A stretch of DNA of 64,000 nucleotides from Caldinitratiruptor microaerophilus. Lineage in GTDB: Bacteria; Bacillota; Sulfobacillia; Symbiobacteriales; ZC4RG38. The notes under the pieces were generated by a model. The model was not told the DNA's origin. It saw nothing but the letters and a program-made list of their open reading frames with translations, and made no database searches. The position numbers were made by a program, and so were the translations under genes. The DNA lies in assembly GCF_025999835.1 (NCBI RefSeq), contig NZ_AP025628.1, positions 3,534,001 through 3,598,000 of the forward strand, written 5' to 3'. Shown here in pieces: positions 53,125 through 55,780 of this stretch (the stretch's first letter is position 1; every line of letters begins with the position of its first letter).

Positions 53125-53165
53125 TCGCCTTCGCTCCCTTCGGAGAGGTCTTGCCAAGGGCGACC

Positions 53166-53191
53166 GGCAGCCCCTCGGAAGGGGACCTGCC
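53166..53191 (-). promoter_or_regulatory. Possible expression-platform hairpin
   Basis: On the minus strand GGCAG-GT-CCCC pairs with GGGG-CTGCC, directly after the 3' end of the riboswitch. A second small stem (CTCC-GAA-GGAG) covers the Shine-Dalgarno before 53124. No U-run is present, so translational control is as likely as termination. Confidence 0.45.
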
Positions 53192-53284
53192 TGCGGCAGC
53201 CCGGCTGCCCTGGCCCGCGGTGCGGGCGGTAGGCCCGTGGCTTTGCGGCCCCGCCTTTCGGCGGGTGTGCCCTTGTCGCCGGCT
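53188..53284 (-). promoter_or_regulatory. c-di-GMP-I (GEMM) riboswitch
   Basis: The minus strand shows the whole GEMM-I core in order. AGGGCACACC comes first (53273-53264), then a stem closed by a GAAA tetraloop (53259-53256) and GGGGCCGCAAAGCC (ending at 53239). ACGGGCCTA and a second stem follow, then GGGCAGCCGGGCTGCC (53210-53195) as tetraloop receptor and closing helix. This matches the Vibrio Vc2 pattern of GGGCAAACC, CGCAAAGCC, GGCCUA and GGUAGC. It lies between rsgI and the secreted protein gene. Confidence 0.93.
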
Positions 53285-53331: not shown

Positions 53332-54771
53332 TCAGTCACCCGACGGTTTGCCGCCCCCACTGCGAATGTCGCCGTCATCCTTCTCGTGACTCCCGCCGCC
53401 GTCGGAGTCCTTCTCGTCCCCGGAGTCCTCCCGGGTGTCCGACTTCTTCCCGTCGGGTTCGGGCTCCGCGCGCGCCTCGTCGCCGCCGGACAGCTCGTCC
53501 GCCGGCTCGTCCCCGGCCTCGTCCCGGGACGGCGGGCCATCCGGATCGGCCGCGGGGGATCGCCCGTCGTGGTCACGCGGTCCCCCGGCGGAGTCGTCCG
53601 CTTCGTCTGCCTGCGGTACCTCGCCCTGCGTGAGGCCGGAAGGCTCGTCCTCCTGCGCCTCGCCGCGACCGACAGGCGGTGTGAGGGACCCTGGCGTACT
53701 CTCACTGCCCGGCTGGCTGGCCTGCCCGGCCCCCGGCGGGGCTGCCGGGCTACCGGCCCGTGAGTTCCCGCTCCGGCGCCCTGCGCCGCCCGGGGCGGCG
53801 GCCGCGGGCGATCCGTGCGGCGTGCGGTCGCCACGGCTGCTTTCATCATCGCCGCGGCCTGTGTCCGGCGCCGGCGCGGGGCCGGCACCGGTCCGCAGCA
53901 CGAGGGGCGCCTGCGGGTCCCCGCCGGGTGCGGAGGTCTCGTACAGGGAACCGACGCTGGCACCGGCAGCCGCCAGCGCCCTACGCAGGCCCCCTGCCTT
54001 CACCGCGGCCGGGTCGACGGGCAGGGACAGGCCCCGGGCTCGCTCGACGGCCGTGTACACGCCCACGGGGAGGCCGCTGCGGTGTGCCGCGTCCAGCACG
54101 CCCTTTGGCACTCGCTGGACCACCACCAGTGCGGGACCGGGAGGACCGGCGCGGAGTCCGGCTTCCACCGCGCCGGCGAGCTCTGCGGGATCGAGCGAAG
54201 GGCCACCGGCCGCGCCGCCGTTCCGGGGCTTCAGGTCGACCACCGTCACCAGCACCGCGGGATCCGGTCCGCCCAGGTAGCCGAGTTCGGCCGCCCGCCG
54301 TACGACCGCCGCGGCGGCGGCGGGCGCCGGCAGGCCCACGAGGTCGAGTTCTGTCAGGACCCGCTCCCCGTCGGGGTTCTGTGGGCTGGCCCGGAGCACG
54401 GTGCCCGCGTCCCCGACCCAGAGCTCGACGCTCGGGTTGATGTCGACGGCCACCACGGCCAGGGCGGGAAGGGCCGGCCTGCTGCGACCGGGCCCCAGCC
54501 ACCAGGCCAGGGGCACGAGGGCGGCGGCCGCGGCGGCGACCAGGACGCGCCGGACGCGGCGGACCGGGTGCCGGGCCCCAGGCGCCGGGCGGGCCGGGAC
54601 CGTGCCCGGGTCGCCGGACCCGGCCTCGGCGCCGGCGGGCCCGACGACCACCGCGCCGACTTGCGGCGGATCGCCGGACCAGGGAACGGACCGCAGCTCG
54701 CCCGCGTCGGTGAGGAGGAGAACGGTGCCGTCGCCGGCGTCGAGCACGACTCCCCGGATGGTCGGGTTCAC
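53332..54771 (-). CDS. rsgI: Anti-sigma-I factor RsgI
   Basis: This 479-residue membrane anti-sigma factor has an N-terminal RsgI_N domain in the cytoplasm (VNPTIRGVVLDAGDGTVLLL, residues 1-50) and one membrane helix (about 75-93). The outer DINPSVELWV motif contains N112-P113, the site where RsgI proteins cut themselves. A periplasmic domain extends to about 300, then a long Gly/Ser/Asp/Glu-rich disordered tail. It holds SigI inactive until a signal triggers further cleavage. Its GTG overlaps the sigI stop. It lacks the carbohydrate-binding modules of clostridial cellulosome RsgI. Confidence 0.88.
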   Translation of the reverse strand: MNPTIRGVVLDAGDGTVLLLTDAGELRSVPWSGDPPQVGAVVVGPAGAEAGSGDPGTVPARPAPGARHPVRRVRRVLVAAAAAALVPLAWWLGPGRSRPALPALAVVAVDINPSVELWVGDAGTVLRASPQNPDGERVLTELDLVGLPAPAAAAAVVRRAAELGYLGGPDPAVLVTVVDLKPRNGGAAGGPSLDPAELAGAVEAGLRAGPPGPALVVVQRVPKGVLDAAHRSGLPVGVYTAVERARGLSLPVDPAAVKAGGLRRALAAAGASVGSLYETSAPGGDPQAPLVLRTGAGPAPAPDTGRGDDESSRGDRTPHGSPAAAAPGGAGRRSGNSRAGSPAAPPGAGQASQPGSESTPGSLTPPVGRGEAQEDEPSGLTQGEVPQADEADDSAGGPRDHDGRSPAADPDGPPSRDEAGDEPADELSGGDEARAEPEPDGKKSDTREDSGDEKDSDGGGSHEKDDGDIRSGGGKPSGD

Positions 54772-55556
54772 GGAGCGTCCCCCCTCTCGCGGCGGGATGG
54801 ATCGGGCCGGTCCAGTCCGGCGAAGCTGCGGAGCCCGTCGAGGTCCTCGGCCAGGAGCAGGAGGGCCACGCCGGTGATGTAGCGGCGGCCGGAGTCGAGC
54901 ACCTTCCGGCTCGCCCCCGTGGCCGCCGCCAGGTCGGCCAGGGGCAGCCGTCGCTGGGTCAGGAAGCGGGCGGAGAGCTCGGGGTCGGCGGCGAGGTGGC
55001 GGGCGATGGCCACCAGACGCTCGCGGGTGTCGCGGTGCTGGGGGGCGGCGCGCCGGAGGTCGGCCAGGGTGAGCCCGAAACGGGCGAGGTGGGCCGCATA
55101 GCGGCGGATCTCGTCCGCGCGCTCCGCGATGGCCTCGGCGCTGTTCGCGAGCGGATCCGGCGTCCAGCCGCCGGACGGCAGCCGCTCCGCGGCGGCAGCC
55201 AGCGGGGCGGGTGTTCCGGTTGAGCCCGCCTCCCCGGCCCGCGGGGCATCCAGCGAGAGCACACGGCGATGCGGGGCCTCCTGGCGGAAGTAGTCGACGA
55301 GCCGGTGGCGGATCACGGCGGCCGCATACGTCTCGAACCGGGCCCCGCGGCCGACGGCGTACGTGTCCACCGCCTCGTTGAAGGCGATGAGCGCCACGCT
55401 CAGCTCGTCGTCGTTCTCCCACTCCAGGCGCCGCCGGCACGCCGCCTCGGCCACGCGCCGGACGAACGGCCGGGCGGCTTCCAGGAGGGCCCGGCGGCTT
55501 TCCTCGTTCCCGGCCTGCGCGGCCTTGACCAAGCTGGCCAGATCCTCCCCTGCCAT
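54768..55556 (-). CDS. sigI: RNA polymerase sigma factor SigI
   Basis: This 262-residue sigma-70-family factor of the SigI group has AQAGNEESRRALLEAARPFV at the start, region 2 with ENDDELSVALIAFNEAVDTY and FETYAAAVIRHRLVDYFR, and a SigI-type C-domain ending in ASRKVLDSGRRYITGVALLL. In Bacillus, SigI is heat- and cell-wall-stress-linked. In this cluster it may control its own operon and the genes for the secreted protein. ATG 55556 with GGAGGCAG upstream is preferred over a 63-codon extension. Translation is coupled to rsgI. Confidence 0.9.
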   Translation of the reverse strand: MAGEDLASLVKAAQAGNEESRRALLEAARPFVRRVAEAACRRRLEWENDDELSVALIAFNEAVDTYAVGRGARFETYAAAVIRHRLVDYFRQEAPHRRVLSLDAPRAGEAGSTGTPAPLAAAAERLPSGGWTPDPLANSAEAIAERADEIRRYAAHLARFGLTLADLRRAAPQHRDTRERLVAIARHLAADPELSARFLTQRRLPLADLAAATGASRKVLDSGRRYITGVALLLLAEDLDGLRSFAGLDRPDPSRRERGDAP

Positions 55557-55780
55557 ACTGCCTCCGAGGGAGTGCTTTCCATATCCATTCCCCGTCCGGG
55601 CTCCCGATTCCTGGCAGCGGCGGATGCCCGGCTCCGGCGGAGGGCCTGGCCCGTCTCTGCCTTTTCTTGCGGACCCGTGGGGCGGTTTCGGGGGGTCGGA
55701 GGCGCGGGCGCAGGATTTCGGCGGCCCCAGGCTCGAAGTGTACAAGGCACCTGCACTGTGTTCCGGGGGGAGGGATTGCC

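Follow-up and report, generated by a model that had tools for sequence, protein, structure and literature searches.

Which signals control the gene for an exported acidic protein that lies, on the same strand, directly downstream of a sigI-rsgI operon in Caldinitratiruptor microaerophilus, and does its leader RNA carry one control or two? To address this, we analysed a stretch of 64,000 nt (positions 3,534,001 to 3,598,000 of contig NZ_AP025628.1), referred to as a whole as the window. A preliminary description had placed a c-di-GMP-I riboswitch, with all core parts in order, at 53166-53284, ahead of the gene for a secreted acidic protein. When the entire window was searched with cmscan, RF01051 (c-di-GMP-I, GEMM-I; Rfam) was the sole RNA family above threshold, giving a complete match at 53281-53192 of the minus strand (60.7 bits, E 2.1e-9, model positions 1-87; gathering threshold 35 bits), so that the claim passed the Infernal check suggested for it. 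The span had been given correctly, yet it includes the first downstream hairpin (53191-53166) besides the aptamer; the distance of about 60 bases to the gene agrees with an aptamer match that ends 67 nt 5' of the first ATG (53124). With P1, the aptamer extends over 53283-53189 (53283-53275 paired with 53197-53189). It scored 73.5 bits against a model built in this work (R1) from 27 seed sequences, itself among them, and missed the threshold of RF03167 (c-di-GMP-I-GGC; 55.8 bits vs a gathering score of 59).

Alignments revealed the hallmarks of RF01051, namely P2 with a GAAA tetraloop, P3, the conserved GCAAAG and the terminal CUGCCG, with one core A replaced by C. The residues G20, A47 and C92 (Vc2 numbering), which we take to be those contacting the ligand, are likewise present. 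As in other c-di-GMP-I riboswitches and the related RF03167, the window aptamer is complete, has the tetraloop and the conserved core, and is located 5' of a gene for an exported or surface protein. Unlike the usual members, it has GGCACACC in place of GGCAAACC, a feature common to the MCP-linked copy in the same genome, and its leader is devoid of a U-run and begins at a predicted sigma-I promoter. Its identity as a riboswitch is near certain.

The gene product was correctly described as secreted and acidic, as judged from a signal-peptide-like N-terminus (by eye; MSMRPRSLLAIVTGLLLLLPSLATAAET) and a mature pI of 4.05; it has no cysteine. It gave no Pfam match and no meaningful NCBIfam match, a PDB sequence search returned nothing real, and a single-sequence AlphaFold model had a pLDDT of 46. 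In the plasmids and genome contigs searched, no relatives were found apart from repeats of an SLH-domain surface protein in one genome (G008), which weakly match residues 109-186. The protein is perhaps a surface or matrix component.

Table 1. Features of the riboswitch locus (window coordinates)
Feature	Position	Strand	Basis or remark
Exported acidic protein, 314 aa	52180..53124	-	signal-peptide-like start, beta module, acidic low-complexity tail
CCUCUCCGAAGGG, 3' arm of predicted SD-sequestering hairpin	53136..53148	-	fold
Hairpin GGCAGGUCCCC-UUCCGA-GGGGCUGCC, alternative to P1 and anti-SD helix	53166..53191	-	-14.7 kcal/mol alone
CCCUUCCGAGGGG, 5' arm of predicted SD-sequestering hairpin	53171..53183	-	12 pairs with 53148-53136, -27.9 kcal/mol
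P1 3' strand GCCGCAGGC	53189..53197	-	fold; last 3 nt overlap 5' arm of next hairpin
c-di-GMP-I (GEMM-I) riboswitch aptamer	53192..53281	-	RF01051, 60.7 bits vs GA 35
P1 5' strand GCCGGCGAC	53275..53283	-	7 Watson-Crick pairs with 53197-53189; first base = predicted transcription start
Predicted sigma-I -10 element CGAA	53294..53297	-	15 nt after A-tract
Predicted sigma-I -35 element GACCCCCCGAAA	53313..53324	-	1 of 2 genome copies; ~30 nt 5' of aptamer
rsgI, anti-sigma-I factor, acidic tail	53332..54771	-	Pfam RsgI_M E 1.2e-16; RsgI_N E 0.011, below cut-off
sigI, sigma-I factor	54768..55556	-	NCBIfam SigI E 2.2e-64 (below curated cut-off); Pfam Sigma70_r2 above cut-off
-10-like CGCA of sigI	55671-55668	-	paired with -35 at 55686..55697
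Predicted -35 element of sigI, identical GACCCCCCGAAA	55686..55697	-	12-mer search

A riboswitch of this class is expected here, since six are present in the 3.6-Mb, one-contig genome and at least one in 137 of the 154 genomes of the class. As assigned by eye, the other five precede a chemoreceptor gene, a Flp/Tad pilus operon, two HD-GYP genes (one of them behind a gene for a DUF5317-like membrane protein) and a pyrimidine-nucleoside phosphorylase-like gene. Among the best-scoring loci of the class, several lie before flgB-like genes and others before genes for pilins or exported proteins. The ligand could be made by proteins bearing the 11 GGDEF domains encoded in the genome. As the MCP-linked switch (L010 1944-2032) has an aptamer core, GGGCACACCCGCCGAAAGGCGGGGCCGCAAAGCCACGGG, identical to that in the window, recent copying inside the genome is suggested. 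The switch before the phosphorylase-like gene, an unusual target for c-di-GMP-I, scored 63.7 bits (L014 1937-2042; genome 209136-209241, plus strand) and is followed by a terminator-like hairpin with a U-run.

The first reading, a riboswitch preceding the gene for a secreted acidic protein, is supported; it was incomplete, as it overlooked a predicted sigma-I promoter and the upstream sigI-rsgI operon, which are the main source of the locus's interest. Positioned between rsgI and the riboswitch, this promoter would start the RNA at P1 or at most a few bases away from it. A surface signal would release sigma-I from RsgI, and transcription from such a promoter would depend on the sigma factor so released, while c-di-GMP would gate the same RNA through P1. 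Initiation by sigma-I combined with gating by c-di-GMP, the latter probably at the level of translation, is as a whole the best explanation of the locus, and we hold it with fair confidence.

How might the gate work? The lack of a U-run, already noted in the preliminary description, was confirmed in the sequence, and a scan found no intrinsic-terminator-like site on the minus strand there; with no terminator, the gate would most likely act at translation, a view to which we lean moderately. When RNA beginning at 53283 was folded, the minimum-energy structure contained every P1 pair but the innermost. The GGC at the 3' end of P1 is common to the next hairpin (GGCAG/CUGCC), and enforcing P1 reduced the probability of that hairpin to 0, i.e. 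the two are mutually exclusive. The arm CCUCUCCGAAGGG covers three bases of the Shine-Dalgarno sequence GGGAG (53138-53134), and the predicted probability of the anti-SD helix rose from about 0.52 to 0.97 at 55 °C once P1 was enforced. The ligand would accordingly be expected to stabilise P1, P1 would take bases from the GGCAG/CUGCC hairpin, and CCCUUCCGAGGGG, freed in this way, would pair over the Shine-Dalgarno sequence, so that the modelled folds suggest a translational OFF response to c-di-GMP. The exclusion by P1 of the hairpin competing with the anti-SD helix speaks against the same dual-input leader turning the gene ON with c-di-GMP; this reading, to which thermodynamic folding without a clear direction lends some room, appears the less probable one and is to be taken seriously. 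Enforced P1 hardly altered the predicted accessibility of the Shine-Dalgarno sequence, and the anti-SD hairpin showed no gain in stability over shuffles of the sequence (z -0.85), 19% of which were as stable. We therefore give the direction little weight, the preliminary description having named none, and put the chance of OFF at slightly over one half. Early termination of transcription, either at a hairpin lacking a U-run or via Rho, is unlikely: the -27.9 kcal/mol hairpin between aptamer and start codon and the terminator-like hairpins (by eye) of other switches in this genome, one with a clear U-run (L005/L014), would accommodate it, whereas the leader itself has neither a U-run nor a hit in the minus-strand scan, and U-runs are also missing from some relatives whose targets are exported (L019, L079).

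The other half of the preferred reading, initiation by sigma-I, concerns the operon upstream. Here, a SigI-family sigma factor adjoins a membrane anti-sigma factor with an RsgI_M domain, which identifies a SigI-RsgI pair, albeit one in which no NCBIfam SigI model reaches its curated cut-off and RsgI_N is sub-threshold. In common with SigI-RsgI systems of Bacillales and cellulosomal clostridia, it has the operon structure, an autoregulatory-type promoter and a predicted regulon that includes exported proteins. It differs from them in that no carbohydrate-binding domain was recognised in the RsgI tail, which is acidic and of low complexity, and in that the target leader bears a c-di-GMP riboswitch. 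The tail (window 53335-53840) resembles that of the exported protein in composition. In C. thermocellum, a sigma-I promoter has been predicted before a pilZ gene (PMC4711584).

Exactly two copies of the 12-mer GACCCCCCGAAA exist in the 3.6-Mb genome, one before sigI and one before the aptamer, both on the same strand. Sigma-I promoters consist of a C-run and an A-tract followed by CGWA, 13-15 nt apart (PMC4711584; PMC6056542); published elements are CCCYYAAA/CGWA and ACCCCC--AA 15N CGAA, and the sigI2 promoter of C. thermocellum reads CCCCCGAAA (PMC4711584). The gap between rsgI and the aptamer contains GACCCCCCGAAA-CTCGAACGGAATCTC-CGAA, an arrangement of this kind (CCCCCCGAAA-15-CGAA). Only five matches to CCCCNNAAAN{13,16}CGWA were found in the genome, one of them inside this gap of ~50 nt, and the sigma-I motif is missing from the other five riboswitches. 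Because the C of CGWA is located at -14 in published promoters (PMC10575876), we infer a transcription start at 53283, the first base of P1. Across the class, CCC-N0-3-AAA-N13-16-CGWA was present within 200 nt 5' of 25 of 81 sigI genes, against a background expectation of 0.0037 per gene, and we therefore consider the motif valid in this class. Two counterpoints are that the sigI promoter of this genome has CGCA rather than CGWA, as does the sigI4 promoter of C. thermocellum (PMC4711584), and that 15 nt separate AAA from CGAA, one nucleotide more than in C. thermocellum. A genome-wide search for the -35 element with two mismatches gave no excess over a backward control, so we do not claim a wider sigma-I regulon. 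Judged by these sequence features, a sigma-I promoter at the start of the riboswitch is likely, and sigma-I dependence of the leader is predicted.

We also asked whether c-di-GMP-I riboswitches recur near sigI, using ~80 loci around class homologues of SigI. Of the ten loci fetched first, which hold the SigI proteins closest to that of the window, four (L076, L077, L079, L084) have a c-di-GMP-I switch or the related GGC form near sigI; about 0.2-0.4 would be expected in ten loci at the roughly 2-3.5 switches per Mb of those four genomes. None was found near sigI in the remaining 70 loci. The L076 aptamer is marginal (35.1 bits). In L079 (genome G024), sigI is preceded by a sigma-I promoter that likewise has CACCCAAA, and another, with ACCCAAA, stands before the riboswitch, whose target encodes an exported TPR and Cu_amine_oxidN1 protein; this leader was located via its proximity to sigI, and the promoter was noticed afterwards. 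In L077, two subtilase genes have sigma-I motifs in front of them, and the riboswitch is situated between the second of these and a third subtilase gene. The L084 riboswitch, too, lies between subtilase genes.

These loci showed further features. In L077 (1656 and 8322) and L084, sigI-rsgI is clustered with several subtilase genes, some of which encode SLH domains, and sigma-I-like promoters are present, possibly marking an exported-protease regulon of sigma-I. In L076 (3762-3617; G019:C17), the aptamer, with 40.5 bits against our own model, is followed by a terminator-like hairpin with TTTTTGTTGTT, a sigma-I -35-like CCCCCCTAAA and then sigI, an order by which c-di-GMP may control sigI itself. 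THF riboswitches occur within ~6 kb of sigI in L081 (6340-6436), L090 (1692-1788) and L103 (9844-9940), from three genomes of one family (G151, G031 and G152).

Searching by promoter pattern retrieved a further leader in the class, on contig 3 of G062, where a promoter, a c-di-GMP-I aptamer (67.9 bits, RF03167), a gene for an exported acidic TPR/Cu_amine_oxidN1 protein, sigI and rsgI follow in a row. The order of promoter, c-di-GMP-I and exported protein beside sigI-rsgI is hence found in G024 and G062 as well. Three leaders from outside the class (G392, G261 and G275), obtained from a phylum sample of 299 genomes, have verified aptamers behind the motif and precede proteins with exported-type starts, with no sigI or rsgI within the retrieved flanks. 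Since these four leaders were found with a pattern already containing the promoter, only the window and G024 count as independent evidence for it; in the phylum search, the backward control gave about the same number of hits as the forward pattern. The products of G392 and G062 are apparent orthologues (46% over 374 aa), and in tblastn the window's exported protein matched none of the products of the recurrent leaders. A leader in G035 (L173) fitted the pattern and was rejected, as its start site would be inside the aptamer.

An ordinary c-di-GMP-I riboswitch carried on RNA from sigI-rsgI read-through or a housekeeping promoter, beside a coincidental promoter-like motif, would suit the frequency of c-di-GMP-I before surface and motility genes in the class and the co-oriented rsgI, whose end is ~50 nt from the aptamer. 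We consider it improbable, given that an identical 12-mer, absent elsewhere in the genome, precedes sigI, that the -10 element is suitably spaced, with the predicted start at P1, and that the arrangement recurs in G024; the failure to find a sigma-70-type site in the region adds weak evidence in a GC-rich genome.

The proposed sigma-I-started, c-di-GMP-gated leader has a parallel in cap, the collagen adhesion protein gene of Bacillus thuringiensis, where a c-di-GMP-I switch controls an exported surface protein; the part of the abstract consulted names no sigma-I link (PMC4933901). Both c-di-GMP riboswitches and surface sensing by sigma-I/RsgI are well known, and the novelty is their combination; no report joining the two was found in the open-access literature searched. 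More tentatively, and at a little less than even confidence, there may be a phylum-wide two-input circuit in which RsgI-released sigma-I drives leaders starting with a c-di-GMP-I aptamer, so that particular exported surface proteins would be produced only when an outside cue accords with the internal level of c-di-GMP; different, unrelated exported proteins would occupy this regulatory position, and feedback of the product on RsgI is conceivable. If true, sensing of the outside and a second messenger would converge on one transcript, and a connection could be drawn between attachment or matrix formation and the signals of the SigI-RsgI pairs in these little-studied bacteria.
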